From an uncultured Desulfatitalea sp. (GTDB lineage: Bacteria; Desulfobacterota; Desulfobacteria; Desulfobacterales; Desulfosarcinaceae), in contig CALMNL010000009.1 of assembly GCA_937868765.1 (NCBI GenBank), positions 1 to 64,000 of the forward strand: a DNA stretch of 64,000 nucleotides, read 5' to 3'. The notes under the pieces are model-generated. The model was not told the origin of the DNA and searched no databases. It saw only the letters and a list, made by a program, of their open reading frames with translations. This document shows positions 7,834 to 48,288 of the stretch, piece by piece (positions within the stretch are counted from its first letter, which is position 1; each line of letters starts with the position of its first letter). The translations under genes and the position numbers were made by a program.

Positions 7834-8131
7834 AAAGCCCGCTGCGGTGACCGTCGGGTTGAAGTACTGCGGCGGGTGCAAACCCAATTACGACCGGGTG
7901 GCGCTGGTGGAAGATCTCCAGCGCCGCCTGGATGGGCAGGCGGTCTGGGTGCGAGCCGACGATCCGGCCGCCGAACTGATCCTGGCGGTGCACGGCTGCC
8001 TGACCGCCTGCGCCGATCTGGCGCCTTGCCAGGCGCAACCGATCTTCGCGATCAGCGGCCCGGAAGGGGCCGAGATCTTTGTGCGTCATATCCAATCCCT
8101 GAAGCGGCCGAAGTTCGCCGCACCCCCTTGA
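7826..8131 (+). CDS. Small cysteine-containing protein (CGGC motif), unknown function
   Basis: A 101-residue protein overlapping the end of the dehydratase gene by 8 bp, so probably translationally coupled. It has an N-terminal YCGGCKPNYDRV motif and later HGCLTACADLAPC, five cysteines in all. The pattern (beta strand, CxxC-like turn, helix, second Cys cluster) resembles small thioredoxin-fold or metal-binding proteins. I do not recognise a named family with certainty. Position suggests a redox or metal-delivery role for the neighbouring Fe-S flavoenzyme. Confidence 0.7.
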   Translation: MSRKPAAVTVGLKYCGGCKPNYDRVALVEDLQRRLDGQAVWVRADDPAAELILAVHGCLTACADLAPCQAQPIFAISGPEGAEIFVRHIQSLKRPKFAAPP

Positions 8132-8143
8132 AAGGAGCCGGGC

Positions 8144-8557
8144 ATGAAGCTTTCCAGAGAAGAGATCCTGACAGCATTAAAGCGGTGGAACGAGGCCTGG
8201 GGACGCTACGACCTGGAGGGTGTCCTGGCCCTCATGGCCCCCGACGTGGTTTTCGAGAACTGGACCGGCGGCAAGGCCGTGGGGCTGGAGGCCTTGCGCA
8301 AAGCGTGGCAGCCCTGGTTCGCCCAGCGCGATTTCCGCTTCATCGAAGAAGAGATGTTCGTGGACGAGGTGGATCAGAAGGTGCTCTTCCGCTGGCATCT
8401 GGAGTGGCCTTGCCCCGACAAAGCCCATGCCGGCCAGCAGGAGCGGCGCCACGGGGTGGATGTGATCCACTTGAAGGACGGCAAGATCATCAACAAATTG
8501 ACCTTCAGCAAAACCACCCTTACGATCGGTGGTCAGCGCTGCCCCCTGCACCTGTGA
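8144..8557 (+). CDS. SnoaL-like/NTF2-like domain protein
   Basis: A 137-residue protein with the cone-shaped NTF2 fold signature: an N-terminal helix with a W-x-x-YDLEGVLALMAPDVVFENW pattern, a glycine turn, then alternating beta strands ending in HLKDGKIINK. Family members are small-molecule hydrolases or isomerases or mere binding domains, so no reaction can be named. GGAG 9 nt before the ATG supports the start. It lies between the CGGC-motif protein and a probable selenoprotein. Confidence 0.8.
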   Translation: MKLSREEILTALKRWNEAWGRYDLEGVLALMAPDVVFENWTGGKAVGLEALRKAWQPWFAQRDFRFIEEEMFVDEVDQKVLFRWHLEWPCPDKAHAGQQERRHGVDVIHLKDGKIINKLTFSKTTLTIGGQRCPLHL

Positions 8558-8576
8558 AGAGGAGCCCGGAACACCT

Positions 8577-9020
8577 GTGGAAAAAATTCTGACGCGAAGC
8601 GGTGAACTGTTCGATTCCGGTTTTCGGTGAGCGGAAAGCGTGCTGCTGGCCGTGAGCGAAAGCAAAAATATTCGATCCGATCTCATCCCGCGCATCGCCA
8701 CCGGCTTTTGCGGCGGGATTGCCCGTACCAGCAATATCTGCGGCGCGGTCAGCGGTGCCGTGATGGCCCTCAATATTTTTTACGGCCGGAACGATCCCGG
8801 AATGTTGCCCGAGAAAAGCTATGCCAAGGTCCGTGAACTGTTGGCACTGTTCGAGGCCCAATTCGGCACCGTCAACTGCCGCGATCTGACCGGCTGCGAC
8901 TTGAGCACGCCGGAAGGCCGGAACGCCTTCAAAGCCAACAACACCATCGCGCGGTGCAGGCACTTGAGCCAGGAGGCCGCTCGCATGGCCGCGCAAATCA
9001 TTGCGGAGACGGAAGCATGA
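8577..9020 (+). CDS. C_GCAxxG_C_C family protein, probable selenoprotein (UGA at 8628-8630)
   Basis: A conventional reading gives only the part from 8640. Upstream, the same frame is open back to GTG 8577, broken by one TGA at 8628-8630. Read through, the product has 147 residues: [16 protein letters not shown], then the TGA residue (18), then [30 protein letters not shown] and further cysteines. In this family the N-terminus reads about as GFNCAQAVLLAF, so the TGA sits exactly at the first conserved Cys. Selenocysteine is the simplest reading; a Cys-to-stop mutation (TGC or TGT to TGA) or a sequencing error is the alternative. Its stop overlaps the next start (ATGA). Biochemical function of the family is not established; redox is likely. 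Confidence 0.75.
8641..8658 (+). promoter_or_regulatory. Candidate bacterial SECIS hairpin after UGA 8628-8630
   Basis: Ten bases after the UGA codon a short stem can be drawn: U11-G28, G12-C27, C13-G26, U14-A25, bulged G24, G15-U23, C16-G22 (numbered from the base after UGA), with loop UGGCC. The loop begins 16 nt after UGA, at the lower end of the range known for bacterial SECIS elements. The stem includes wobbles and a bulge, so it is weaker than the one in the HdrBC-like gene. Confidence 0.4.
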
Positions 9021-9508
9021 AAGAAGCCATCCCAACGGCGGAGCGCTCGGCGCTGTTGCACTGCCGCGGCGTACGCGGCGCCACCACCGTTCTGGAAAAC
9101 AGCCGCGAGGCCATTCTGGAGGCCACCCGCGAGCTGTTGTTCGTCATCATGCGGGCCAACCAGATGGCCCCGGAGGAGGTGGCCAGCGTCTTTTTCACCA
9201 CCACCGTGGATTTGAACGCCACCTATCCGGCCCTGGCAGCGCGGCAGCTGGGCTGGTACGACGCGGCCCTGATGTGCGGCCACGAAATGCAGGTGCCCGA
9301 CGGCATGCCGCGCTGCATCCGCGTCTTGATCCACTGGAACACGACCCGCGGCATGAAGGAGATTGTGCATGTCTATCTGCGCGAGGCCAAGTCCTTGCGG
9401 CCCGACCGCAAGAGCCTGCCCGAAATCCCCCTGGAAGAGATCGAGGCGGCGGCCAAGAATATCGATTTCAACGCGTTGGCCTATAATCCCGACGGCGATG
9501 AAAAATAA
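9017..9508 (+). CDS. aroH: Chorismate mutase, AroH type
   Basis: A 163-residue protein matching the trimeric AroH fold: [13 protein letters not shown] near the N-terminus (active-site Arg), [19 protein letters not shown] in the middle (the Glu and Arg that contact chorismate) and [13 protein letters not shown] near the end. It would convert chorismate to prephenate for Phe/Tyr synthesis. It is about 35 residues longer than the Bacillus subtilis enzyme, with extra residues at both ends. Its ATG overlaps the upstream stop, so it is coupled to the putative selenoprotein, an unexpected partner. Confidence 0.9.
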
Positions 9509-9617
9509 TCGTGCGGATTGACGCAAGAAATTGGAATGCCAAGGTGTTTTTGCCTTTGGAAACGAAGATCGATGGTTCCCTTTGGTGATACGAACCCCTT
9601 GAAAGAAGGAGAACGCG

Positions 9618-10157
9618 ATGGACAAGAAAGCCAAAAACGAGAAACGGAACAAAGTGATCGAGGTGTTGAACCAGGCCCGGGCCATGGAGCTGCACGCCAT
9701 CAGCCAGTACATGAACCAGCATTACAACCTGGATGACATGGATTACGGCGAGCTGGCCGCCAAAGTCAAACTGATCGCCATCGACGAGATGCGCCACGCC
9801 GAGGCCTTCGCCGAGCGCATCAAGGAGCTGGGCGGTGAACCGACCAGCGAACCGGCGGCCAAGACCAAGAAAGGGCAGAAGGTGGATGCCATCTTTCCCT
9901 TCGACGCCGATCTGGAAGACAACACCATGGAGGTCTACAACGGATTTCTACTGGTGTGCCGCGACAACGGCGACAGCACCAGCATGAAGCTCTTCGAGAC
10001 GATCATCGACGAAGAGCAGATCCATTTCAACTACTTCGACAACATCGGCAGCCACATCAAGGAGCTGGGCGCCGTCTACCTGGCCCAGATCGCCGGCACC
10101 CCCGCGACCACCGGCCCGGCTTCCAAGGGCTTCGTCTCCGGCCCGGCCGGCGCATAA
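9618..10157 (+). CDS. bfr: Bacterioferritin / ferritin-like iron storage protein
   Basis: A 179-residue four-helix protein. Diiron ligands are visible in ARAMELHAISQYMNQHY (Glu), DEMRHAE (Glu, His) and ETIIDEEQIHFNYFDNI (Glu, Glu, His). The Met in DEMRHAE is where bacterioferritin binds haem. AGAAGGAG 7 nt before the ATG is a strong ribosome site. The C-terminus has a small Gly/Pro/Ala-rich tail. It stores iron or detoxifies O2/peroxide, fitting the oxygen-respiration genes nearby. Confidence 0.92.
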   Translation: MDKKAKNEKRNKVIEVLNQARAMELHAISQYMNQHYNLDDMDYGELAAKVKLIAIDEMRHAEAFAERIKELGGEPTSEPAAKTKKGQKVDAIFPFDADLEDNTMEVYNGFLLVCRDNGDSTSMKLFETIIDEEQIHFNYFDNIGSHIKELGAVYLAQIAGTPATTGPASKGFVSGPAGA

Positions 10158-10225
10158 CCCGCCAGCGGCTCGCAGCCTTCATGGGCGCCGCTGCCCGTGC
10201 GGCGGCGCCTTGGGGCATCCCTTCC

Positions 10226-10254
10226 TTGACAAAAACAGGGGCGAATTTTATGGT
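10226..10254 (+). promoter_or_regulatory. Sigma70-type promoter before the inositol-phosphate synthase gene
   Basis: TTGACA (10226-10231), a 17-bp spacer and TATGGT (10249-10254). A GC-rich hairpin (GGCGCCGC arms, about 10188-10213) just upstream may end bacterioferritin transcripts. Confidence 0.55.
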
Positions 10255-10348
10255 AGCCCATTCTCTGGCCGTAGCGACGTGCCGCTGAATTCCAGCGTGG
10301 GCCGCGATCGGCATAACCCCTATATATAATGATGAAAAGCAAGCCACC

Positions 10349-11506
10349 ATGCCTTCGGAACCCACTGTCTCGCCCTCTGTGCTGATGTTGATTGCCGGCG
10401 CCAAGGGCGCCATCGGCACCACCGTGGCCCTGGCCGCGGCCCAAATGACCAAAGATCCCGAGCCCATACTCTCCGGTCTGACCACCGCCCAGCGCTTCCC
10501 CGAACTCGGCGATTCCTCGCAGATCGCCGTGGCCGGATGGGACACGCTGCCGATTCCCGTCGAGGAGGCCGTTCGCCGGCACGGGGTGGTGCCCGAAGCG
10601 CAATGGCGGGACCATGCGTCGCACCTCTCCCGCATCGAGATCCGGCCGGCGCCGCCGGAGAAAGCGCCCCTGGCCGCGCAGGTGGAGGCCCTTCAGGGCG
10701 ACATGCGCCAGTTTATGGCCCGCTATCCCTCGGCGCGACCGGTTCTGGTCAATCTTCTGCCGGCGGCCTGGGATATCGCCCAACTGCATCGCCTGGAGAC
10801 GCTGGATGCCATGCTGCAGACAACGGCCTTCCTTCCCGATCTGGCCTATGTCCTGGCGGCGGTGTTGTGCGATATCCCCGTGGTGAATTTCACCCCCAAC
10901 ACCGTGGAGTTTCCGGTGGTGTGCCGGGAAGCCCGACGCCGCGGCGTGCCCCTGGCCGGACGGGACGGCAAGACCGGCCAGACCTACTTCAAGGTGGTGC
11001 TGGCCTCGGCCCTCAAGGCCCGCTCTCTGTATGTCGACGGCTGGTACAGCCTGAACATCCTGGGCAACGCCGATGGTCGCAACCTGATGGACCCGGACCG
11101 GGCCAGCGGCAAGCTGCACAACAAGACCCAACTGCTGGACGAGATCCTGGGATACAAGGTGGGCGCCGCTTATGGCGAGAGCAGCCACAAGGTGCACATC
11201 GATTACTATCCGCCCCGGGGAGATGCCAAGGAAGCCTGGGATGTCATAGACTTTAAGGGCATTTTCGGATTGCCCATGAGTCTGCGCCTCAACCTGCAGG
11301 GCCGGGACAGCATCCTGGCCGCGCCCATGGCCATCGATCTGGCCCGCTGGGTGGCGGCCCTGAAACTGGCCGGCATCGGCGGACCGATCCCCGAACTGGG
11401 GTTTTACTTCAAGAAGGCCGTGGGCGATGGTCCGCCCCTGACCTTTCAGGAACAGTTGGCCGCCCTCGAACATCTGGCGCGAAGGATCTCCGCTGAAAGG
11501 AAGTGA
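10349..11506 (+). CDS. Inositol-3-phosphate synthase (MIPS) family protein
   Basis: A 385-residue protein of the NAD-dependent MIPS family, which converts glucose-6-phosphate to inositol phosphate. The N-terminal Rossmann part has LIAGAKGAIGTTVALAAA. The catalytic part has FTPNTVEF, GRDGKTGQTYFKVVLASALK and NILGNADGRNLMDP, the counterparts of the family's SGQT and N-x-x-GNxDG motifs. No good Shine-Dalgarno precedes ATG 10349. It is followed after 1 bp by a TIM-barrel isomerase, so the two likely share a pathway to an inositol-containing lipid or solute. Divergent family members exist, so the product is likely rather than certain. Confidence 0.85.
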   Translation: MPSEPTVSPSVLMLIAGAKGAIGTTVALAAAQMTKDPEPILSGLTTAQRFPELGDSSQIAVAGWDTLPIPVEEAVRRHGVVPEAQWRDHASHLSRIEIRPAPPEKAPLAAQVEALQGDMRQFMARYPSARPVLVNLLPAAWDIAQLHRLETLDAMLQTTAFLPDLAYVLAAVLCDIPVVNFTPNTVEFPVVCREARRRGVPLAGRDGKTGQTYFKVVLASALKARSLYVDGWYSLNILGNADGRNLMDPDRASGKLHNKTQLLDEILGYKVGAAYGESSHKVHIDYYPPRGDAKEAWDVIDFKGIFGLPMSLRLNLQGRDSILAAPMAIDLARWVAALKLAGIGGPIPELGFYFKKAVGDGPPLTFQEQLAALEHLARRISAERK

Positions 11507-34873: not shown

Positions 34874-36430
34874 ATGAGTGATTTTTCGGTTCCGCCCGGC
34901 CCCGGATTGGTCCACCGCCCGACCTTGACGCCCCCTTCGCTCCAGGACAACTCCGCAGATGGCGACCGGCTCTGCAGCGCCCTGCGCCGCGATCTGGGCG
35001 TCGAACAGATTCATGTTTCGCTGGCCCTTCGCCGGCGACTGCCCGCCTTGCTGCGGGACGCCGCCTATGCCGTGCGGTGTGTGATCTTCCAGGAAAAAAG
35101 CTGTGCCGTGCTGGTGCACGCCGCGGCGGCCGACGCCCATGAAGGGCTGTACGGGTTGGCCGTGGACCTGGGCACCACCCGGGTGGTGTTGCGCCTGGTG
35201 GATCTGGAAAACCGGACGGTGCTGGCCGAAGACGGCTTCGACAATCCCCAGGTGGAAATCGGCCCGGACGTGCTGGCCCGCATTCACCACACCGATCAGC
35301 CCGGCGGATTGGCGCGGCTGCAACGGCTCATCGTGGACGGGCTCAACCGCAACGCCGCGGCCCTGGCCCGTGCCTGCGGTGTCGATGCGCAGGATATCCA
35401 CCTGGTCACCGTGGCGGGCAATACGGCCATGAGCCACCTGCTGGCCGGCCTGCCGTCCGGATGGATCATCCGCGAGCCGTACATCCCGGCCGCCAACCGC
35501 TTCGGGCTGATGCCGGCCGCCGAACTGGGGTTGGCGCTGGCGCCCCTGGCCCAGGTGTTGATTTTTCCCAATGTGGGCAGTTACTTCGGCGGCGACCTGA
35601 TCGCCGGCATTCTGCACTCCGGCCTGCACCGCCGGGAGGAGACCGCCATCCTGGTGGATGTGGGCACCAATGCCGAGGTGGTGGTGGGCAACCGCGAGTG
35701 GCTCATGGCCTGCGCCGGCGCCGCCGGGCCGGCCCTGGAGGGCGGCATGAGCCGCATGGGCACCACGGCCGGCCCCGGCGTCATCGACCGGGTGCGCATC
35801 GATCCGCGCACCCGTCATATAGACATCCATACCATCGAGGATCTGCCCCCCCGGGGCATCTGCGGCTCGGGCGTCATCGATCTCGCCGCCCAGCTCTTCC
35901 TGGCCGGCATGATCGACATCCGGGGCAAGCTGCGGCCGGACATTTGCGGCCCGCGCCTTTTTCTGCGCGACGGACTGGCCCATCTCATCATCGTGCCGGG
36001 CGAGGCATCTGCCGGCGGCCAGCCCCTTTGCATCAGCCAGGCCGACCTGGACAGCCTGATCCGCTCCAAGGCGGCCATGTACACCATTCTGGAAACCATC
36101 ACCGCCACGGTGGGCCTGGCCCTGGACAGCCTGCCTGCTTTCTGGGTGGCCGGCACCTTCGGACAGTTCATCGATCCGGTCTCGGCCATCACCATCGGCA
36201 TGCTCCCCGACCTGCCCCTTTCGCGCTTTGCCACCCTGGGCAACACCTCCCTGGGCGGCGCCACCCTGGCGCTGGTCTGCCGCAGCGCGCCCGCCGAAAT
36301 CGACCAGATCCGTGACGCCGTCACCTACCTGGAACTCAACGTCAACCAGGAGTTCATGAACCGTTTTTCCGCCGCCAAATTCATCCCGCATACCGATCCC
36401 GACCGGTTTCCGTCCGTACCGATCCCCTGA
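34874..36430 (+). CDS. RACo-like ASKHA-domain protein (DUF4445) lacking the ferredoxin domain
   Basis: A 518-residue protein related to reductive activators of corrinoid proteins. GLYGLAVDLGTTRVVLRLVD, VTVAGNTAMSHLLAG, ILVDVGTNAEVVVG and FGQFIDPVSAITIGMLP are the ASKHA ATPase motifs. Full RACo proteins begin with a [2Fe-2S] domain (C-x5-C-x2-C...C). None is seen here: the first 90 residues have only scattered cysteines. Electrons would thus have to come from another protein, or its role has changed. It follows the Sir2 gene by 15 bp and ends the cooC operon. Confidence 0.85.
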   Translation: MSDFSVPPGPGLVHRPTLTPPSLQDNSADGDRLCSALRRDLGVEQIHVSLALRRRLPALLRDAAYAVRCVIFQEKSCAVLVHAAAADAHEGLYGLAVDLGTTRVVLRLVDLENRTVLAEDGFDNPQVEIGPDVLARIHHTDQPGGLARLQRLIVDGLNRNAAALARACGVDAQDIHLVTVAGNTAMSHLLAGLPSGWIIREPYIPAANRFGLMPAAELGLALAPLAQVLIFPNVGSYFGGDLIAGILHSGLHRREETAILVDVGTNAEVVVGNREWLMACAGAAGPALEGGMSRMGTTAGPGVIDRVRIDPRTRHIDIHTIEDLPPRGICGSGVIDLAAQLFLAGMIDIRGKLRPDICGPRLFLRDGLAHLIIVPGEASAGGQPLCISQADLDSLIRSKAAMYTILETITATVGLALDSLPAFWVAGTFGQFIDPVSAITIGMLPDLPLSRFATLGNTSLGGATLALVCRSAPAEIDQIRDAVTYLELNVNQEFMNRFSAAKFIPHTDPDRFPSVPIP

Positions 36431-36549: not shown

Positions 36550-37968
36550 ATGTTATCGGCACCTCAACATAGCGCCGGCGGAACCCAGGGCCGGGTGGTC
36601 TGTTTCGCGCTGGACCCGGAGTTCAGAGAGCTGGCGGCCGGGGCCACCGTTCCGGTGCAGACCCTGGAGAGCTATCCGGACGGCGGCGTGCCGGACCCGG
36701 CGACGGCGATTTGCTTTCTCGTCGCCACCCACGACGTGGCCAAGGCCCTGGAGCTGGTCCGACGGTTGCGCGCCGCAACGGCCGAGGGACTGAAGCCCAT
36801 TTACCTGGCGGCACCCCTTGGCGCCCTGGTGGAACAGCTTTGTGACGGTGTCCTGGCCACCGTGCACGCGGCCTGGGACCAGGCCCGGCCTGCGGCCCGC
36901 TTGCTGTCCGAACTGGACCCGGCCGGCCTTTCGGCCGGCGGCAACGACGCTTACCGCCTGCTGGGCTTTCTCTATGCCCGGCCGGATTTCGTGCTGGCCC
37001 CCAGCGGCTCCTGGCAATCGGAAAAGATCTATGCCTACCCTGCGGCCGAAGCGTTGCTGGAAAAGGCCGACGACACCATCGCCACCCTGGCCCAGCGCAA
37101 GTTGCTGGCGCCGGCCCAACTGGTGGACCGGCTGCGCCACTGCCCCAAATGCGACGGTGCCCATCTGAACTTCATCGATATCTGTCCCAACTGCGCGGGC
37201 ATCGATATCGCCCAGAAACCCTTTCTGCACTGCTTCACCTGCGGCCACGTGGGGCCCGAGGCGCGTTTCTTTTCCCAGGAGAAACTGGTCTGCCCCCAGT
37301 GCGCCACAGCATTGCGCCACATCGGCGCCGACTACGACCGGCCGCTGGAAAATTTCCAGTGCAACGGCTGCGGCCATGTGTTCGTCGACCCCCAGGTGAC
37401 GGCCCGCTGCCTGCACTGCGGCCAGACGAGCGCGCCCGACACCCTCATCGCCCGTCCGGTGCACGCCTACCGGCTCACCGACCACGGCCGCCAGAGCGCC
37501 CGCGCCGGCGATGTGGAAGATGTCTTTTCCCTGCTGGACAGCCTCAACAACGTGTCGCGGGCCTACTTCGAATCGATCCTGGACTGGCTGCTCTCCCTTT
37601 GCCGGCGCCACAAGGACGAGCAGTTCAGCCTGGTGGCGGTGCGTATCGCCAATATCGTCGAGCTCACCGACCGCATCGGGCGCTACCAGGTGCGCGCCCT
37701 GATGGATGAATTCGTGCGCCGGGTGCGCGAGCTGATCCGCACCACCGACCTGACCACCCGCACCAGTCAGCATACCCTCTGGCTGCTGCTGCCCAAGACC
37801 CACGCGGCCGGTCAGCAGACGGTGCGCGAGCGCATCCTGGGGTTGCGCGCGGACGACCAGGCCGGGCTGCGCCTGGTCACGGCCGGTTTTCACGCGCCGT
37901 CCCAGATGATCGCCGGCGAAAAGGCCCGTCTGCTGCTGGCCCGGCTGGAAGGAGAGATCGGCGAATGA
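36550..37968 (+). CDS. TackOD1 zinc-ribbon plus degenerate GGDEF-like protein
   Basis: A 472-residue cytoplasmic protein. A receiver-like N-terminal part (1-150) is followed by six CxxC pairs (C198/201, 212/215, 228/231, 248/251, 271/274, 287/290), including HLNFIDICPNC and LHCFTCGH, the layout of the TackOD1 output domain. The C-terminal 150 residues resemble a GGDEF fold without the GGDEF signature, so it is probably a sensor rather than a cyclase. It overlaps the glycosyltransferase start (ATGA). I infer that it controls the polysaccharide synthase encoded next. Confidence 0.75.
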   Translation: MLSAPQHSAGGTQGRVVCFALDPEFRELAAGATVPVQTLESYPDGGVPDPATAICFLVATHDVAKALELVRRLRAATAEGLKPIYLAAPLGALVEQLCDGVLATVHAAWDQARPAARLLSELDPAGLSAGGNDAYRLLGFLYARPDFVLAPSGSWQSEKIYAYPAAEALLEKADDTIATLAQRKLLAPAQLVDRLRHCPKCDGAHLNFIDICPNCAGIDIAQKPFLHCFTCGHVGPEARFFSQEKLVCPQCATALRHIGADYDRPLENFQCNGCGHVFVDPQVTARCLHCGQTSAPDTLIARPVHAYRLTDHGRQSARAGDVEDVFSLLDSLNNVSRAYFESILDWLLSLCRRHKDEQFSLVAVRIANIVELTDRIGRYQVRALMDEFVRRVRELIRTTDLTTRTSQHTLWLLLPKTHAAGQQTVRERILGLRADDQAGLRLVTAGFHAPSQMIAGEKARLLLARLEGEIGE

Positions 37969-39302
37969 GCGATCTTCTGGCCGAAATCTTCCACACCCTG
38001 ACGCTGCTGCTGCTCAGTCCTTTCAACAACGGCATGATGAACTTCGCCCTGAAGTTCATCCCCTTCGTGCTCTTCTTCGAATTGCCGGTGTACATCTTCA
38101 TCATGCTGGGCATCGTGCGCTACTACCTGCGCAAGAACGAGGCGCTGCCCGGCCAGGCGCCTTACTTCCCCAAGGTGTCGTGCCTGATCACCTGCTATTC
38201 GGAAGGCGAGGACGTGTCCGTCACCATCCGCACCCTGGCCGAACAGCTCTATCCGGGCGTGATCGAAATTATGCCCATCGTGGACGGCGCGGTGAAGAAC
38301 GCCCTCACCTATGAGGCCGCCCTCAGGCAGGCCGAAACCGTCGCCCGGCGGCCCAACCGTATCCTGCGGGTCGTTCCCAAGTGGCAGCGCGGCGGCCGGG
38401 TCTCCTCGCTCAATGCCGGGCTGAGCCTGGCCACCGGCGAGATCGTCATGTCCCTGGACGGCGACACTTCCTTCGACAACACCATGGTCCAGGCCGCCGT
38501 GGCCCGGTTCCGGGACCCCAACGTGGTCGGGGTGGCCGGCAGCCTGCGCGTGCGCAACGCTTTCAAGAATCTGGTGACCCGCTTCCAGGCCCTGGAATAC
38601 CTGCTCTCCATTCATGCCAGCAAGACCGGCCTGAGCGAATTCAACGTGGTCAACAACATCTCCGGCGCCTTCGGCATCTTCCGCAAGAGCTTCCTTACAA
38701 AGATCGGCGGCTGGGACGCCGGCACGGCCGAAGACCTGGACATCACCCTGCGCATTAAAAATTACTTCGGCCGCCACCCCGAGCTCAAGATCGTCTTCGA
38801 ACCGGGGGCCATGGGCCATACCGACGGCCCCGAGACCTGGCGCGGACTTTACAACCAGCGGCTGCGCTGGGACGGCGACCTGTATTACCTCTATATCCGC
38901 AAGCATGCCCTGAGTTTCGCCCCGCGCATGCTGGGCTGGAAGAACTTCATGATGCAGCTGTGGACCGGGATTTTCTTCCAGCTGGTGATGCCGTTCATCA
39001 TCATCGTCTACAGCATGACGGTCTTCGCTTTCTATTCGCCGGGGTTCGTCATCGCGGTCTGGTTGCTGGTCTACCTGGTCTATCTGGTGATCTCGGCGCT
39101 TTTCTACCTGCTCTACATCACCATGCTCTCCGAGCGGGTGAAGGAAGACCTTCGCCTGGCGTGGCTGTTGCCGATCGTGCCGCTGCAAACCTTCGGCATG
39201 CGGGTCTGGAACGGTCTGGCCACGTTGAAGGAGATGGTGCTCAAAGCCCACCTGGACTCGTCCATGGCGCCCTGGTGGGTGCTGCGGCGCACCAAATTTT
39301 AA
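37965..39302 (+). CDS. Family 2 glycosyltransferase, processive polysaccharide synthase
   Basis: A 445-residue membrane GT2. One N-terminal helix (about 25-50), then the catalytic domain with MSLDGDTSFDN (DxD), AGTAEDLDITLRI (catalytic Asp) and NQRLRWDGD (the QxxRW-type processivity motif), and three or four C-terminal helices. It would build and translocate a beta-linked polymer (cellulose-, hyaluronan- or poly-GlcNAc-like) across the inner membrane. No PilZ domain is present. Confidence 0.9.
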   Translation: MSDLLAEIFHTLTLLLLSPFNNGMMNFALKFIPFVLFFELPVYIFIMLGIVRYYLRKNEALPGQAPYFPKVSCLITCYSEGEDVSVTIRTLAEQLYPGVIEIMPIVDGAVKNALTYEAALRQAETVARRPNRILRVVPKWQRGGRVSSLNAGLSLATGEIVMSLDGDTSFDNTMVQAAVARFRDPNVVGVAGSLRVRNAFKNLVTRFQALEYLLSIHASKTGLSEFNVVNNISGAFGIFRKSFLTKIGGWDAGTAEDLDITLRIKNYFGRHPELKIVFEPGAMGHTDGPETWRGLYNQRLRWDGDLYYLYIRKHALSFAPRMLGWKNFMMQLWTGIFFQLVMPFIIIVYSMTVFAFYSPGFVIAVWLLVYLVYLVISALFYLLYITMLSERVKEDLRLAWLLPIVPLQTFGMRVWNGLATLKEMVLKAHLDSSMAPWWVLRRTKF

Positions 39303-39312
39303 TAAAACGGTC

Positions 39313-41424
39313 ATGGGCCGTCGGAAACCGGATATGCAAGGCGTTATCGACAAATTCAAGCGGGTGGGGATGGGGGTGCTGGCGCTCGCCGTGCTGTGCT
39401 GGGGCCCGCCGGTCCCGGCCGCCCGGGCGGAGCCGCCGCTGCGGTCCCTGTCCGAATTCGAAACCCGCGTGCACAACTCGCCCGAAGTGCTGGCGGCCCT
39501 GGCGGCGTTGGATGAAAGCCTCGGCCGGCTGGACCTGGCCCAGGCCGAAGGCGGGTGGCGGGTCTTCGGCGGCGCCGGTGCCGGCCAATTCCGGGAGCAG
39601 TCCGACATCGAAACCATGCGCACGTACGAGCGCGTCGACCTGAGGGCGGGCCTGAAGTATCCGCTTTTCGGAAGCAGACACCGCGCAGCAGAATCGATCC
39701 TCAAAATGCAGGCGCTCAGCGAAGAGAAGGCCTACGAACAATCCCTGGTCGGCCGCGACAGCCTGCTCTCGCTGCGGCTGCACTACATCAATTACTGGGC
39801 CGCCCAGGAGAAGCGGCATCTGGCCGAACTCTTCCTGCGAGACGAAGCGCCCATGGACCAGGTATTGAGCCAGCGCACGACCGCCGGCCATCTGCTGGAG
39901 GGCGACCGGCGCGAATATCTCTCGGTCTACGCCCTGGTGCGCCGCCATCTGGCCCAGTCCCAGGCGCTCCAGCAGCGGGCCCTGGGGGTCCTGACCCTCA
40001 TGACCGGCGAACCGGTGCCGCCCTTCCAGGCCCTCTTTCCGGAAATGGCGCGGCCCTGCCTGGATCGCGACGCTCTGATCAAGACCGTGCAGGCCAGCCA
40101 TCCCCTCCTGCTGCAGCGGCAGCAGGCGGTGGCGGAACAGCGCCAACTGGCCGAGCTGGCCCAGAAGAGCCAGGTCAACGGTCAGCTGGCACTCTACTCC
40201 AACCTATCCTCGGAAACCGACGCGCCAGAGCCGGGCTACGGTGTGGGCGTGGATTTCTCGTTCGACTTCCCGCTGCGCTCCCGCCAGGCCGGTTCGGCCC
40301 GGCGCCAGGCCGCCCAGGCAGCCCTGGAACAGAGCCGCCGGCAGTTGGAAATCGCCCAGGCCCAGCTCTCGATGGATGCCCGCCAGAGCCTCGACGATTA
40401 CCGCACGGCCGAGAAGAATTACGCTTTCGCCGTCCAGCGCCTGGCAGCCGCCCGGGAACAGTTGCGCGAAAAGCTGCTGCGGTCGGCCTACCTGCCGGGG
40501 GACGGACTGGAACAGGCCCAGCAGTCGCGCCTGAACGAATACCAGGCGGCCGTCGACCTGGTGGAGGCCTGGGTGCAGCGTCTGCAGGCCCAGGCGCGGC
40601 TCCTGCACCTGGCGCCGGCCGAGGCCTGGGCTGCGGCTCAGACCACGGCCGCACCACCCGGTTGCACCGTGTATGTCTGGCACAGCGCCGAGCTGCTGGC
40701 GCGCTTTGCCCAGCCCACGACCCTGCTGGCCGATTTGCGGCGCCGGCGGGTCAAGCGGCTGCTGCTTTCCTTCGATGCCGGGCAGATCGAAGCCCTGGCC
40801 GGACCGGAATACCGGCACAGGTGGGCAGGCTTCCTGGCATATTTGAAGCAGCAGGGCATGCAGGTCGAACTGCTGCTGGGAGAACCCCTCTGGATTCTGG
40901 ACGCCCATCGGCCGCGTTTGCTGGCCCTCATCCGTGATCTCTCGGACCTGCCCTTTGCTGCCATCCACCTGGATCTGGAGCCGGACCAGCTTCCGGTTCA
41001 TGCCGAGGGCAGGGAAGATCTGGGCCCGGCGCTCCTTGCGACCGTGCGCGCCGTAAAATCCGAAAGCCCGCTGCCGCTGGGCCTGAGCGTTCACCCGCGC
41101 TATCTCGACCCCCGGCGGCCGGATGGCGGCTGGGGGCCGCGCCTGGCGGCCATGGGCGTCAAGGAGGTCGTACTGATGATTTACGTGGCCGATCCCCGGC
41201 GGGCGGCCGGCATCGCCGGTCCGATTTTAAGGGCTCTTCCCGGGTTGCAGTTTTCCGTCGCCCAGAGCCTGGAGCCGGTGCTCAGTGCGGCCGAGAGCCA
41301 CGCCGGCCTGGAATGCGACCAGTTGGCGGCGCGCCTGACAGCGTTGCGCAGCCTGTTGCCCGAGGCCAATTTTAAAGGGATCGTGCTCCAATCCTGGAAA
41401 GCGTATGAGGGGTTGTGTCCATGA
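39313..41424 (+). CDS. TolC-like outer-membrane efflux protein fused to a C-terminal TIM-barrel-like domain
   Basis: A 703-residue exported protein. Signal peptide about 17-38 (ALAVLCWGPPVPAARA). Residues 45-440 show the repeated helical pattern of outer-membrane efflux proteins (YERVDLRAGLKYPLFG, then long coiled helices). From about 450 a second domain begins with CTVYVWHSAELLARF and shows alternating strands and helices (RLLLSFDAGQIEAL, FAAIHLDLEPDQL, LGLSVHPRYLD, EVVLMIYVADP) like a glycosidase or amylase-type barrel; the HLDLEPDQ stretch could hold acidic catalytic residues. This joins an export channel to a polymer-acting domain in one gene. Confidence 0.78.
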   Translation: MGRRKPDMQGVIDKFKRVGMGVLALAVLCWGPPVPAARAEPPLRSLSEFETRVHNSPEVLAALAALDESLGRLDLAQAEGGWRVFGGAGAGQFREQSDIETMRTYERVDLRAGLKYPLFGSRHRAAESILKMQALSEEKAYEQSLVGRDSLLSLRLHYINYWAAQEKRHLAELFLRDEAPMDQVLSQRTTAGHLLEGDRREYLSVYALVRRHLAQSQALQQRALGVLTLMTGEPVPPFQALFPEMARPCLDRDALIKTVQASHPLLLQRQQAVAEQRQLAELAQKSQVNGQLALYSNLSSETDAPEPGYGVGVDFSFDFPLRSRQAGSARRQAAQAALEQSRRQLEIAQAQLSMDARQSLDDYRTAEKNYAFAVQRLAAAREQLREKLLRSAYLPGDGLEQAQQSRLNEYQAAVDLVEAWVQRLQAQARLLHLAPAEAWAAAQTTAAPPGCTVYVWHSAELLARFAQPTTLLADLRRRRVKRLLLSFDAGQIEALAGPEYRHRWAGFLAYLKQQGMQVELLLGEPLWILDAHRPRLLALIRDLSDLPFAAIHLDLEPDQLPVHAEGREDLGPALLATVRAVKSESPLPLGLSVHPRYLDPRRPDGGWGPRLAAMGVKEVVLMIYVADPRRAAGIAGPILRALPGLQFSVAQSLEPVLSAAESHAGLECDQLAARLTALRSLLPEANFKGIVLQSWKAYEGLCP

Positions 41425-42482
41425 AGATCGACTTTCAAAAAAAGGACCGCGACCCCACCGTGGTCCAGGGCATGAAGGTGGCCTACGCGCCGGCCAAGCG
41501 GGTGGCCGCCCAGTGGCGCTGGTACATCGTGCTGCTGTGCGTCTCCAGCCCCCTGATCTACTTTCTGATCAAATTGCTGCTGGCCTGGTGGATCGTTTCG
41601 GCCCAAGGCTTTATCTCCCTGGCGCGCATCGACGTCAACAGCAATGCCAACGGGGTCATCGAAAAACTGCAGGTGCACACCGGCCAACAGGTGACGGCCG
41701 GCCAGACCCTGGCGCAACTCTACAACGCCGAACTGGAAAGCCAGATGGCCCTGCGCAAGGCCGAATACACGGCCCTGCAGACCGGGACCGGCGCGGCGGC
41801 CGATGATCCGCAATTGCGCCTGGCGCGCCAAAGAGTGCGCCTGGCGGAAGAGAATCTTACTATCGGCAAGGCATTTTTCAAAGACGTCGGTTTTCTCCAA
41901 GGCCAGGGGGCCGCCACCGTGGCCGACCTGAACCTGGCCCGGGAACGGTACAACCGCGCCCAGGTGGAGTATGACCAGGCCCGCTACGAACTGGATCGCC
42001 TGCGCGCCCCCGGATCCCGGCCCGCCGCAGATACCGACAACGGGGCGGCCCTCCTGCGCATCCAGGCCCAGATCAAGGCCCTCGACGGTGAACAGTCTCG
42101 CCTGGCCCAGACGGCCCCCATCTCCGGGCGGGTGCTGGACGTCTTCGTGGTCGAAGGCGCCTTTGTCTCGCCCGGGACCCCCTTGCTGCTCCTGGGCGCC
42201 GCCGACAAGCCCTACGTGGTGGCCTATCTGCCCACCCAGTATGCTCGCTACGGCCGCAAGGGCCAACGCGCGACGGTGCGCCTGGCCGACGGCACCCGCC
42301 TGCCAGGCGTGGTGCGCCAGGACGCCACCCTCACCAAGCGCCTCCCGGCGGACCTCAGTTCGCCCATCGGTTCCCGGGATATCATGCTGCTGGTGGAGTT
42401 GGACCTCATCGCCCCCCTGCCGGAAATCCAGTGGGTCGACGGGTTGCCGGTGTCGGTGCGGTTTGCTTTCCGGTTGTTTTGA
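41421..42482 (+). CDS. HlyD-family membrane fusion protein
   Basis: A 353-residue periplasmic adaptor. One membrane helix (about 35-60) is followed by the biotinyl-lipoyl half GVIEKLQVHTGQQVTAGQTL, a coiled-coil hairpin (about 100-210), the second lipoyl half SGRVLDVFVVEGAFVSPGTPL and a beta domain. It would bridge the GT2 synthase and the TolC-like protein. The ATG at 41421 overlaps the upstream stop; GTG 41415 is an in-frame alternative. Last gene of the export operon. Confidence 0.88.
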   Translation: MKIDFQKKDRDPTVVQGMKVAYAPAKRVAAQWRWYIVLLCVSSPLIYFLIKLLLAWWIVSAQGFISLARIDVNSNANGVIEKLQVHTGQQVTAGQTLAQLYNAELESQMALRKAEYTALQTGTGAAADDPQLRLARQRVRLAEENLTIGKAFFKDVGFLQGQGAATVADLNLARERYNRAQVEYDQARYELDRLRAPGSRPAADTDNGAALLRIQAQIKALDGEQSRLAQTAPISGRVLDVFVVEGAFVSPGTPLLLLGAADKPYVVAYLPTQYARYGRKGQRATVRLADGTRLPGVVRQDATLTKRLPADLSSPIGSRDIMLLVELDLIAPLPEIQWVDGLPVSVRFAFRLF

Positions 42483-43854: not shown

Positions 43855-46800
43855 TCAGGCCCGCGCAAAGAGCGCCGCGGTTTTGGCGATGAGCTGTTCG
43901 TCGGTGAAGTGTTTGAGGCTGATGGCCTTGCCGGGGCATTCGGAGACGCAGGTGCCGCAGCCGTGGCACTGGGCCGGGTCGATGACGGCGTGGGAATGCT
44001 CGCGCACTTCGGGGATGCCGTAGGGGCAGGCGCGCACGCAGGTAAGGCAGGCGGCACAGCGGGCGCTGTCCACCACGGCCACGACGCCGCCCACCAGCAG
44101 GGCCTCCTTGGAGAGCAGGGTCATGGCCCGGGCCGCGGCGGCCTTGGCCTGGGCGATGCTCTCCTCCATGGGTTTGGGATAGTGGGCCAGACCGGCCAGG
44201 AAGATGCCTTCGGAAGCGAAGTCCACCGGCCGCAGCTTGGCGTGGGCCTCGACCAGGAAGCCGTCGTCGTTGACCGGCACCTTGAACAGCTCGAAGAGAC
44301 GGTGGTTGTCGGTGGCCACGATGCCGGCGGCCAGGACCAGCAGGTCGGGCTTGATGCGGATGGGCCGCCGCAGCACGTGGTCGGTGACGGTGAGCAGCAG
44401 TTGGTCTTTGTCGCCGATGGCCGCGCTGGGCGGGTTGTCCAGTTCGTAACGGATGAAGATCACCCCTTTGGAACGGGCCTCCTGGTAGAGCTGCTCGCGG
44501 AAGCCGTAGGAGCGGATATCGCGGTAGATGATGAAGACCTTCATCTCCGGTTTTTGGGCCTTGAGTGCCAGGGCCCCCTTGAGGCTGTGGGTGCAGCAGG
44601 TCTTGCTGCAGTAGGGCCGGTCGTTGTTGCGCGAGCCCACGCACTGGATGAAGACGGCGCAGTCGGCCTTGGTGATGCGCTCGTCCTTGCGCACGAAGGC
44701 ATCGTCCATTTCCAGGTGGGTCATGACGTTGGGGTGTTTGCCGTAGAGGAATTCGGTGGGCTTGTGCTCCTTGGCCCCCACGGCCAGGATGGTGACGCCG
44801 TGGGCGATGGTCTGGTCGCGGCCGTTGCCGTCGGAGATGACGCTGGTCACGTTGCCCAGCGAACCGTGGGTGGCGGTCACTTCGCTGTTGAGGTGCAGCC
44901 GGATGCGCGGATGGCCCTGCACCCGTTCCACCAGATTTTTGAGATAGGCCTGAAGATCATCCCCCTGCCAGGTGCTGCGCAGGTGACGGGCATTGCCGCC
45001 CAGGCGGCTGTCGCGTTCCACCAGGTGGACCTCGCAGCCTTGTTCGGCTACGCCCAGGGCCGCCTCCATGCCGGCCACGCCGCCGCCCACCACCAGGGCC
45101 GCCTTGGTGATCGGCACCTGGACATGATAGAGCGGTTCGATGAAGGCCGCCTTGGCCACGGCCATGCGCACCAGGTCCTTGGCCTTGGCCGTGGCTTTGT
45201 CGGGGTTGTTCATGTGCACCCAGGTGTTCTGGTCGCGGATGTTGGCCATTTCGAAGAGGTACTTGTTCAGGCCCGCCTCGCGGATGGTCTCCTGGAAGAG
45301 CGGCTCGTGGGTGCGCGGCGAGCAGGAGGCCACCACCACGCGGTTGATCTGTTTCTCTTTGATCACCTCCTTGATGTGCACCTGGCTGTCCTGGGAGCAG
45401 GTGAACAGATTGTCTTCCACATGCACCACGTGGGGCAGGGTGCGGGCATACTCGCGCACGGCCGGCACGTCGGCCACGCCGCCGATGTTGATGCCGCAGT
45501 TGCAGACGAAGACCCCCACCCGCGGCGGTTGCCCGGAGACATCGGTTTCGGGCGGCAGCTCCTTGGTCTGGGTCAGGGTCCAGCGCGCGGCGGCCAGGCG
45601 CTCGCCGGCGCAGGCCGCGGCGGCCGAAGCCTCCATGACCGAATGGGGGATGTCCTTGGGTTCCTGGAAGGCGCCGCAGACGTAAATGCCCTCCCGGGAG
45701 GTTTGCACCGGGGCCGTGCCGTGGGTTTCGGCAAAGCCGTAGCCGTTGAGGGTAACACCCAGGCGGGTCGCCAGGGCCACGGCCTGGGGATCGGCGGCGA
45801 GGCCCACCGAGAGCACGACCAGGTCGAAGATCTCTTCGGCCGTGCGGCCGGTCTCGGTGGCGAAGACGATGCGCAGGCGATCCTCCTTGGCCGGATAGAC
45901 CGAGTGGATGCGCGAGCGCACGAAACGCACGCCGTGGTCGTCTTCGGCGCGCAGGTTGTACTTGTCGAAGTCTTTGCCGAAGGTGCGCATGTCCATGTAG
46001 AAGATGGTGGCGTCCAGGGGCTCGGCGCTGTGCTCCTTGGCGATGACCGCCTGCTTGTTGGCGTACATGCAGCACACCGACGAGCAGTAGCCGTTGTCGC
46101 AGTGGTTGATGTCCCGGGAACCGACGCACTGCAGCCAGGCGATGCGCTTGGGCTCCTGGTGGTCCGACGGCCGCACCAGGTGGCCGGCATAGGGGCCCGA
46201 GGCCGAGAGCATGCGCTCGAACTCCAGGCTGGTGACCACATTGGGATGCTTGGCGTAGTTGTAGGTCTCATAAAGAGTGGGGTCGAAAGGCTTGAAACCG
46301 GGCGCCAGGATCACGGCGCCGACCTTTACTTCCCGGCTGTGGGCGCACTGGGCATGGTCCACCGCGCCGGCCAGGCAGGCCTTGACGCACTGGTAGCACT
46401 CGGAGCAGACGCCGCAGGCCAGGCAGCGTCCGGCCTCGGCCTCGGCATCTTCGGCCGAATAGCCGGTCTGCACTTCGGCGAAATCTTTCACCCGTTCGGC
46501 CGCCGGCCGGTGGGGCATGGCGGTGCGCGGTTTCAGGGGCTCGCCCTCGATGGGCACGTCGCCGACGGCATCCCAGTGCTGGGCGCGATCCTCGTAGATG
46601 TCGACGCCCTGGATCAGGCGCCGGATGGAGATGGCCGCCTCCTTGCCCGCCGCGATGGCTTCCACCACCGTGGCCGGGCCGCTGACCGCGTCGCCGCCGG
46701 CGAAGATATCCGGGTCGCTGGTCTGCAGGCTGACCGGGTCTACATTCATGGTGCCCCAATCGCTCAGGGTGCAGGCGCACTCGTCGGTGAGACAGGCCCA

Positions 46801-48288
46801 GTCGCTCTCCTGGCCGATGGCCGGTATGACTGCATCCACCGGGATTTCGAACTGCGAGCCGGCCACCGGTTCGGGCCGGCGCCGGCCGCTTTTGTCCGGT
46901 TCGCCCAGCTGCATGCGCACGCACTGGATGGCCGTGACCCGTCCGTTTTCGGCAATGACCCGTACCGGGTTGGTCAGGGTCATGATTTCGATGCCTTCGT
47001 CCCGGCACTCGGCGATCTCATCTTTGCTGGCCGGCATTTCGGCTTCGCCCCGGCGGTAGATGATGAAGGGTTTGGCCGCGCCGTGGCGCAGGGCCGTGCG
47101 CACGGCATCCATGGCCACGTTGCCGCCGCCGATGACCGCCACCCGGTCGCCCAGGGGGATCTTCTCGCCCAGGTTGGCCCGGCGCAGGTAATCCATGCCG
47201 GGGAAGACGCCTGTGTACTCCTCGCCTTCGATGCCCAGGGATTTGCACTCCTGGGCGCCGATGCCCATGAAGAAGGCCTTGTAGCCCTCTTTGCGCAACT
47301 GGCCGATGGTGATGCCGCTCTTGCCGATGGTCACGCCGGTCTTGAATTCCACCCCCAGGTCGCGGATGGTCTGGATTTCGGCCGCCACGATCTCGCGCGG
47401 CAGGCGGTACTCGGGAATGCCCAGCACCAGCATGCCACCCAGCACGTCATGCTGTTCGAAGACGGTGACCGCGTAGCCTTCGATGGCCAGGAAATAGGCG
47501 CAGGTCAGGCCGGCCGGACCGGAGCCGATGATCGCCACTTTCTGGCCGTTGGCGGGCTTCTTCTCGGGAACATACCGCTTGGTGTTCTGCAGATCCCAAT
47601 CGGCCAGCTGGCGATGCAGGTATTGAATCCCCAGAGGCGCATCGACCTTCTGGCGGGTGCAGGCGGTCTCGCAGGGATGGTGGCACACCCGGCCGCAGAC
47701 GCCGGGGAAGGGGTGCTCTGACTTGAACAGGGCCAAAGCCTCTTCGTACTTGCCCTGGTTCATCAGGGCGATCCAGCCCTGCACGCTCACGTGGGCCGGG
47801 CAGGTTGCCTTGCAGGGCGCCGTGCCGCGCTTTTCGATGGCATAGGCCCCGGGCATGGCCTGGGGATAGAGTTTGTAGGCCGCCTTGCGGGCGCGCAGCC
47901 CCTCGTCGAAACGGTTGGGGGTTTCGATGGGGCACACCTTGGCGCACTCGCCGCAGGCCGTGCACTTGTCCATGTGAATGAAACGGGGCTTTTCCAGCAG
48001 GCGCACCGTGAAATCGCCGGGGTCGCCGCTGATCTCCTCCACTTCGGTCATGGGCAGCAGCTCGATGTTCAGGTGGCGTCCGGCCTCCACCAGCTTGGGC
48101 GAAATGATGCACATGGAGCAGTCGTTGGTGGGAAAGGTCTTGTCCAGTTGGGCCATCTTGCCGCCGATGGCCGACCCGCTTTCCACCATGTAGACTTTGA
48201 AGCCCGATTCGGCCAGGTCCAGGGAGGCTTGAATGCCGGCGATGCCGCCGCCGACCACCAAAACCGCGCCGGTCGTATTGTGTTTCAT
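43855..48288 (-). CDS. HdrA-GltD-HdrA fusion (electron-bifurcating-type flavoprotein)
   Basis: A 1477-residue multidomain Fe-S flavoprotein. An HdrA-type FAD domain begins at residue 8 (VLVVGGGIAGIQASLDLAES) with CTACGECAKVCP near 110. A glutamate-synthase-small-subunit-like NAD(P)H oxidoreductase is inserted at about 155-590 (CGRVCHHPCETACTR, IIGSGPAGLTCAYFLA, IGGGNVAMDAVRTALR). A ferredoxin segment CLACGVCSECYQCVKAC and the rest of HdrA follow (CVGSRD, GYCSSVCC). A second complete HdrA starts near 965 (VFVCNCGINIGG, VVGGGVAGMEAALGVAE, CVGSRNNDRPYCSKTCC) and ends with two ferredoxin clusters (CAACLTCVRACP, CHGCGTCVSECP). Partnered with the HdrBC-like selenoprotein and MetF upstream, it should couple NAD(P)H, ferredoxin and methylene-THF chemistry. 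Confidence 0.9.
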   Translation of the reverse strand: MKHNTTGAVLVVGGGIAGIQASLDLAESGFKVYMVESGSAIGGKMAQLDKTFPTNDCSMCIISPKLVEAGRHLNIELLPMTEVEEISGDPGDFTVRLLEKPRFIHMDKCTACGECAKVCPIETPNRFDEGLRARKAAYKLYPQAMPGAYAIEKRGTAPCKATCPAHVSVQGWIALMNQGKYEEALALFKSEHPFPGVCGRVCHHPCETACTRQKVDAPLGIQYLHRQLADWDLQNTKRYVPEKKPANGQKVAIIGSGPAGLTCAYFLAIEGYAVTVFEQHDVLGGMLVLGIPEYRLPREIVAAEIQTIRDLGVEFKTGVTIGKSGITIGQLRKEGYKAFFMGIGAQECKSLGIEGEEYTGVFPGMDYLRRANLGEKIPLGDRVAVIGGGNVAMDAVRTALRHGAAKPFIIYRRGEAEMPASKDEIAECRDEGIEIMTLTNPVRVIAENGRVTAIQCVRMQLGEPDKSGRRRPEPVAGSQFEIPVDAVIPAIGQESDWACLTDECACTLSDWGTMNVDPVSLQTSDPDIFAGGDAVSGPATVVEAIAAGKEAAISIRRLIQGVDIYEDRAQHWDAVGDVPIEGEPLKPRTAMPHRPAAERVKDFAEVQTGYSAEDAEAEAGRCLACGVCSECYQCVKACLAGAVDHAQCAHSREVKVGAVILAPGFKPFDPTLYETYNYAKHPNVVTSLEFERMLSASGPYAGHLVRPSDHQEPKRIAWLQCVGSRDINHCDNGYCSSVCCMYANKQAVIAKEHSAEPLDATIFYMDMRTFGKDFDKYNLRAEDDHGVRFVRSRIHSVYPAKEDRLRIVFATETGRTAEEIFDLVVLSVGLAADPQAVALATRLGVTLNGYGFAETHGTAPVQTSREGIYVCGAFQEPKDIPHSVMEASAAAACAGERLAAARWTLTQTKELPPETDVSGQPPRVGVFVCNCGINIGGVADVPAVREYARTLPHVVHVEDNLFTCSQDSQVHIKEVIKEKQINRVVVASCSPRTHEPLFQETIREAGLNKYLFEMANIRDQNTWVHMNNPDKATAKAKDLVRMAVAKAAFIEPLYHVQVPITKAALVVGGGVAGMEAALGVAEQGCEVHLVERDSRLGGNARHLRSTWQGDDLQAYLKNLVERVQGHPRIRLHLNSEVTATHGSLGNVTSVISDGNGRDQTIAHGVTILAVGAKEHKPTEFLYGKHPNVMTHLEMDDAFVRKDERITKADCAVFIQCVGSRNNDRPYCSKTCCTHSLKGALALKAQKPEMKVFIIYRDIRSYGFREQLYQEARSKGVIFIRYELDNPPSAAIGDKDQLLLTVTDHVLRRPIRIKPDLLVLAAGIVATDNHRLFELFKVPVNDDGFLVEAHAKLRPVDFASEGIFLAGLAHYPKPMEESIAQAKAAAARAMTLLSKEALLVGGVVAVVDSARCAACLTCVRACPYGIPEVREHSHAVIDPAQCHGCGTCVSECPGKAISLKHFTDEQLIAKTAALFARA

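Follow-up and report, generated by a model that had tools for sequence, protein, structure and literature searches.

A TackOD1-Associated Operon of an Uncultured Desulfatitalea sp. Probably Encodes an Exopolysaccharide Machine with HlyD-TolC Export

Introduction

The operon treated here, four genes at 36550..42482 on the plus strand of a 64,000-nucleotide stretch of DNA from an uncultured Desulfatitalea sp. (GCA_937868765.1, contig CALMNL010000009.1, positions 1 to 64,000; in the following, the window), combines a family-2 glycosyltransferase (GT2) with HlyD and TolC proteins and a regulator containing a TackOD1 domain. In the XcsAB-TolC model of cyanobacterial cellulose synthesis, a GT2 is likewise combined with HlyD and TolC, accompanied by the separate endoglucanase XcsC and an expected input by cyclic di-GMP (c-di-GMP); however, its TolC is encoded outside the operon, the genes are scattered in T. 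vulcanus, and the model is unvalidated according to a 2025 review (PMC12430437). The BgsBA mixed-linkage beta-glucan synthase of Sinorhizobium and Rhizobium also has a HlyD-like protein beside its GT2 and is activated by c-di-GMP, and its description as an operon of two genes includes neither TackOD1 nor TolC nor a TIM barrel (PMC5567048, PMC9495663). The NfrAB/NGR system forms a surface glycan by a c-di-GMP-controlled GT2 (PMC8669472, PMC8669469), and the Pel operon encodes its own regulator, PelD, whose degenerate GGDEF domain carries an RxxD inhibitory site (I-site) for c-di-GMP; both PelD and BcsE combine a dead GGDEF domain with a live I-site (PMC8461298). The TackOD1 domain (PF18551) is known for its CXXC zinc ribbons and was reported from archaeal response regulators and also from type IV pilus loci, in the single paper of the literature searched that names it; its function is called obscure there, and the passages mentioning the domain draw no link to glycosyltransferases (PMC5847659).

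Neither BgsBA nor XcsAB-TolC comes with TackOD1, a dead-GGDEF receptor or a fusion of TolC with a glycosidase domain. We found no description of a set of GT2, HlyD, TolC and GGDEF genes in the literature searched, which is weak as a sign of absence with most subscription papers outside that literature. A previous sequence-only reading of the operon was aware of no standard polymer pathway containing this set. This appears to hold for the complete set and has to be qualified by BgsBA (PMC9495663) and XcsAB-TolC (PMC12430437) as partial precedents, and the overall interpretation given by that reading is supported. Judged from the genes and their predicted products, the operon probably encodes a hitherto undescribed type of synthase-dependent exopolysaccharide machine, exporting via HlyD and TolC under the control of c-di-GMP.

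Gene Set and Co-Occurrence

The open reading frames agreed exactly with the overlapping or closely spaced arrangement reported before. The regulator gene (P0001, 36550..37968) and the GT2 gene (P0002, 37965..39302) share a four-base ATGA overlap at 37965, the gene of the TolC-type fusion protein (P0003, 39313..41424) follows after a ten-base gap, and its stop overlaps by another ATGA at 41421 with the probable start of the HlyD gene (P0004, 41421..42482), for which a GTG at 41415 is an alternative start. All four genes are on the plus strand.

Used as query against 84,980 species genomes, the regulator alignment yielded 54 loci, 52 of which were assessable (one ran off a contig end and one was doubtful). 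A GT2 gene adjoins TackOD1 in every one of these 52 loci, HlyD is present in 46 of them across phyla and gene orders, and TolC together with the barrel domain in 20. The sequence-only reading had named conservation of the gene order elsewhere as a check, and the genes indeed occur together widely. The taxa include Thermodesulfobacteriota, Vibrionaceae, Legionellales, Alteromonadales and Synergistota, and further Bacteroidota, Nitrospirota, Fibrobacterota, Lentisphaerota and Cyanobacteriota. Relatives show the same four-gene order, others a rotated order TolC-HlyD-TackOD1-GT2, and three- or four-gene forms were found in Vibrio, Aliivibrio fischeri, Photobacterium and relatives of Legionella and Desulfovibrio. 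A complete operon in the four-gene order is present on the 29-kb Aeromonas caviae plasmid pKAM329_3 (L071), which is typed as mobilizable and where the annotation goes no further than diguanylate cyclase, glycosyltransferase, TolC family protein and HlyD; this is evidence for horizontal spread.

Because the count of 52 loci is conditional on TackOD1, we ran a reverse test in 297 genomes of the phylum, using three separate queries (TackOD1 over its cut-off, GT2 at E <= 1e-35, barrel at E < 1e-20). TackOD1 was found in 10 genomes and the GT2 and the barrel in 8 each, the latter being an identical set of 8 that lies completely inside the 10. For the barrel versus TackOD1 (8/8 within 10/297), the hypergeometric p is 3e-14 if kinship is ignored; because the genomes span 6 genera, its real weight is lower, but still large. 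The four-gene association is not due to chance.

Regulator

The product of the first gene had been described as a 12-Cys TackOD1 zinc-ribbon protein with a degenerate GGDEF-like end, and the domain searches bore this out. Its TackOD1 domain (aa 133-309; 36946..37476) matched PF18551 with 219.9 bits (cut-off 32), and the twelve cysteines of its CXXC zinc ribbons (198, 201, 212, 215, 228, 231, 248, 251, 271, 274, 287 and 290) are near-invariant across 53-54 homologues. The C-terminal part matched PF00990 (GGDEF) with 32.8 bits (cut-off 23.8), with the GGDEF motif itself missing. In the AlphaFold model of the protein (pLDDT 90.7), this domain (aa 326-472; 37525..37965) has its best structural match in diguanylate cyclases (Z 15.7, rmsd 2.9 over 139 residues). 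A catalytic GG[DE]EF motif is retained by no homologue at the aligned active-site columns, which are occupied, for example, by TSQHT. One candidate for an intact active site (L024) was rejected because its match to a loose [AS]G[DE]EF pattern lies outside these columns.

The predicted I-site motif, R397-T-T-D400 (37738..37749), was recognized in the homologue alignment, where RxxD is present in 46 of 53 proteins, and in a profile alignment to DgcR with bound c-di-GMP (6zxm), where RTTD pairs with the RKSD I-site. Another basic residue, R428 (37831..37833), follows 28 residues past the Asp of this motif, at a position presumably equivalent to PleD R390, a further I-site residue; it is R in 30/53 and K in 14/53 homologues, and R or K in 44 of the 46 proteins with RxxD. 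Because the active site is lost and the I-site triad RxxD...R/K mostly kept, we read the domain as a predicted c-di-GMP receptor of the PleD/PelD I-site type. The nucleotide is probably made in the host, because the 5.36-Mb genome, in which the regulator is present as a single copy, contains 13 other GGDEF matches. The sequence-only reading had set the operon apart from both BcsA/PilZ and Pel/Psl-like systems. The first part stands, as there is no PilZ domain and the GT2 is separate from BcsA; the contrast with Pel has to be softened for the regulator, which resembles PelD in its degenerate GGDEF domain and intact I-site, although PelD itself is a membrane-bound GAF-GGDEF protein without TackOD1 (PMC8461298).

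In the same structural comparison, the N-terminus of the regulator superposed on PleD and WspR receiver domains, but its likely phospho-acceptor, aa 62, is not conserved (D in 23/53). In Roseibium and a metagenome-assembled Hyphomicrobiales genome, TackOD1 is placed behind a true receiver domain without a Pfam-recognised GGDEF domain, followed by GT2 and HlyD genes. A receiver thus replaces GGDEF in some alphaproteobacterial forms, so the input varies around a constant pair of TackOD1 and GT2. In the Alisedimentitalea plasmid locus L073 (7938-9223), the annotation splits TackOD1 from a GGDEF remnant, giving each its own gene; GT2, HlyD and galE come next.

The receiver-like N-terminus would also suit a protein acting mainly as a transcription regulator of the operon, without contact to the GT2, and TackOD1 was introduced as a zinc-ribbon output domain of response regulators, with REC-wHTH-TackOD1 among its archaeal forms (PMC5847659). 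We regard this role as unlikely, because the TackOD1 gene is closely spaced with the GT2 gene across lineages, like those of operon-encoded exopolysaccharide regulators such as PelD, and because the system GT2 appeared only alongside TackOD1 in the phylum sample.

Glycosyltransferase

The second gene codes for a putative inner-membrane polymer synthase that matched only GT2 families in Pfam, with PilZ not among the matches. It contains the motifs D 107, DGD 165, TAED 254-258 and QRLRW 298, corresponding to the D, DxD, TED-like and QxxRW motifs of the inner-membrane processive GT2 enzymes of synthase-dependent exopolysaccharide systems, which confirms its earlier assignment as a processive GT2 lacking PilZ. 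The best NCBIfam model was PgaC_IcaA (TIGR03937) with 143.8 bits, below the cut-off of 422.3, and the match to HAS1 in the PDB was weak.

A maximum-likelihood tree was calculated from 50 rows, 42 of them GT2s of the system and eight others, a small reference sampling including PgaC, IcaA, NodC, BcsA, BgsA, NfrB and the genome's own paralogue; it was midpoint-rooted for drawing only. A single change separates the 42 system GT2s from the eight others, with support values of 95/79 and in 96% of the bootstrap trees. The phylogenetic check proposed by the sequence-only reading therefore placed the enzyme in a group of its own, outside PgaC/IcaA, NodC, BcsA/BgsA and NfrB, with the positions of NfrB and NodC unsure due to long branches; hyaluronan synthase and XcsA were outside the tree, and BcsA stood in for XcsA. 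The nearest GT2 paralogue of the genome (L110, G000:C11:235500-240500) is fused into a protein of >1000 aa whose long N-terminal region may comprise a hydrolase and a deacetylase. In Enterovibrio (L041, 9998-11324), the GT2 gene is broken over three frames, representing either a sequencing error or a broken gene.

These features separate the operon from several described systems. The hallmarks of Bcs cellulose synthesis, PilZ on the synthase and BcsB, are missing from the operon, and its GT2 is apart from BcsA and BgsA. BgsA groups with BcsA and, unlike the GT2 described here, binds c-di-GMP at its own C-terminus, whereas NfrB carries a fused MshEN receptor. XcsA differs in having PilZ and being a cellulose synthase, and its system has no TackOD1 and an endoglucanase that is not fused to TolC. 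Pel uses a different synthase and is exported through PelB/PelC; the Pfam matches of our operon are to GT2 families for the synthase and to OEP and HlyD families for the exporter.

TolC Fusion Protein, Barrel Domain and Adaptor

The third gene product matched PF02321 (OEP/TolC) with 52.8 bits (cut-off 22), in line with the predicted TolC-like channel carrying an extra domain; its C-terminal domain of ~250 aa (40666..41421) had no Pfam match. An AlphaFold model (pLDDT 93.4) folds this domain into a (beta/alpha)8 barrel similar to those of GH18, the PgaB C-terminal domain and Cwp19. By structural comparison with VIA-align, Cwp19, GH18 chitinases and the PgaB C-terminal domain reached Z values of 16-17, tied with other glycosidase families. 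The invariant residues are a Trp near strand 1, the Asp and Glu of an HLDLEP motif (D554, E556; 40966-40983) ending strand 4, and the Met and Tyr of an LMIY motif (aa 621) ending strand 6; the protein also contains W695. The strand-4 and strand-6 sites are the places of the catalytic Glu and Tyr of GH18. The GH18 pattern is DxxDxDxE at strand 4 and MxY at strand 6, where the barrel has HLDLE and LMIY. PF00704 (GH18) was matched by 3 of 24 barrel relatives (best 3.3e-7). We describe the extra domain as a TIM barrel of GH18-like fold that bears a DxE motif. The fusion with TolC recurs in other loci, and the barrel is encoded by a separate gene in Methylocystis (order TackOD1-GT2-HlyD-barrel-TolC), Methylococcales and a cyanobacterium, which indicates that it belongs to the gene set and is not an accident of fusion.

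The fourth gene product was identified by PF16576 and PF13437 as the expected HlyD-family periplasmic adaptor, with one N-terminal membrane helix. It also scored against models of RND, EmrA and type I secretion adaptors, and HlyD and TolC typically belong to efflux and type I secretion systems. The GT2 might accordingly make a short or lipid-linked glycan or modify a surface molecule; HlyD and TolC would then be parts of a pump for efflux or type I secretion that is unrelated and shares the operon by coincidence. However, a Pfam scan detected no ABC, RND or MFS transporter genes (ATPase or permease) in the operon, as type I secretion or tripartite efflux would require, HlyD accompanies TackOD1 and GT2 in 46 of the 52 loci across phyla and orders, and QxxRW as well as a membrane GT2 nearest to PgaC/IcaA are typical traits of processive synthases; we consider this explanation unlikely. 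Because no such partner is present, the GT2 would be the sole inner-membrane motor. A TPR scaffold with a beta-barrel porin is usual, if not universal, in exopolysaccharide systems and is represented by NfrA and PgaA; the operon showed no TPR match and has OEP/TolC instead. The combination of a HlyD adaptor and TolC with a GT2 synthase corresponds to XcsAB-TolC in gene content, the level at which it is known here.

Regarding the polymer, the DxE/Tyr pattern of the barrel hints at a 2-acetamido sugar. Sugar-nucleotide genes are joined to the operon elsewhere, namely galE in L045 and L073, a TviB-like dehydrogenase in L065 and an epimerase family gene in L113. The galE genes of two unrelated loci and the TviB-like UDP-HexNAc dehydrogenase would be in keeping with aminosugars or galactose; as pointers to one polymer, the galE, TviB-like, epimerase and GH16 neighbours (for GH16, see below) disagree. 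A narrower form of the proposed machine would be a distant offshoot of the PNAG system PgaABCD that makes poly-GlcNAc or poly-GalNAc. In favour of this, TIGR03937 of that system is the closest named family of the GT2, and the barrel resembles in fold both GH18 and the PgaB C-terminal domain, PNAG synthesis likewise involving a TIM-barrel glycosidase domain that acts in the periplasm. The DxE and Tyr of the barrel would suit N-acetyl substrates, and galE and UDP-HexNAc dehydrogenase-like genes are neighbours in some loci. In contrast, the GT2 is far below the family cut-off and outside the PgaC/IcaA group, the operon lacks PgaA, the PgaB deacetylase and PgaD, a profile comparison gave no support for kinship of the barrel with PgaB, and the GH16 neighbour points elsewhere; a PNAG offshoot is rather unlikely.

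Genomic Setting

The operon is preceded by a gene for a RACo-like corrinoid-protein activator (34874-36430) and followed by two short open reading frames without Pfam matches and a gene on the minus strand (43855-48288) for an HdrA-like flavin/iron-sulfur protein of 1477 aa. Neither flanking gene suggests a polymer pathway, and scans for promoters and terminators gave hits at about chance level only. A contig labelled as the archaeon Methanomethylovorans (L031, JAHFZE010000063.1) carries an operon with TolC and HlyD much like that of Synergistaceae L032 and is probably mis-binned. Directly past the operon in L023, a gene for an Alg44-like PilZ-HlyD fusion (6630-8129) and one for a large membrane protein (8114-10735) apparently represent a second exopolysaccharide operon.

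Proposed Mechanism and Significance

In the machine we propose, the GT2 would polymerise a nucleotide sugar and thread the chain through the inner membrane. In the cytoplasm, the TackOD1-GGDEF protein would bind c-di-GMP via its retained I-site, and its zinc-ribbon module would switch the GT2 on. With HlyD connecting the GT2 and the TolC channel, the polymer would leave by a tripartite conduit rather than a TPR/beta-barrel porin of the BcsC, PgaA or AlgE type. The GH18-like barrel may act on the polymer by trimming, measuring or clearing it, either in the periplasm or on the outer-membrane side, a role likened to those of the PgaB C-terminal domain, BcsZ and PslG in other systems.

Several observations weigh against this proposal. 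The RxxD motif is missing in 7 of the 53 regulator homologues. No TIM barrel was found in six genomes whose operon has only the three genes TackOD1-GT2-HlyD (Vibrio type), in a search lacking a positive control, which suggests that the barrel is not essential. A GH16 gene adjoins HlyD in L033 (Legionellales), suiting a beta-glucan over an aminosugar polymer. Finally, two genomes of one genus encode TackOD1-GGDEF proteins beside a CYTH gene and without the system GT2 (G228, L111:6332-7861; G175, L114:6468-7913, with CYTH assigned by Pfam in L114); TackOD1-GGDEF therefore also exists outside the machine, in another use.

On a wider view, TackOD1 may be a dedicated output module switching on a private GT2 group, with varied inputs (either a true receiver or a dead GGDEF domain that keeps its I-site) plugging c-di-GMP or phosphorelay signals into one HlyD-TolC exopolysaccharide machine with a built-in glycosidase. 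We give about even chances to this reading, under which the machine would be a new secretion-system class, spread over many phyla and a mobilizable plasmid, and there is a fair chance that TackOD1-GT2 deserves a class of its own.

For TackOD1, which is widespread but of obscure role, the operon suggests a function that can be tested. With GT2, HlyD and TolC in one operon, it also offers a setting to ask whether a polysaccharide exits via TolC, a question also raised by cyanobacterial cellulose. Tractable species may commonly make a surface polymer that has gone unrecognised, because the machine is encoded by Vibrio, Aliivibrio fischeri, Photobacterium, relatives of Legionella and Desulfovibrio and a plasmid of Aeromonas caviae.

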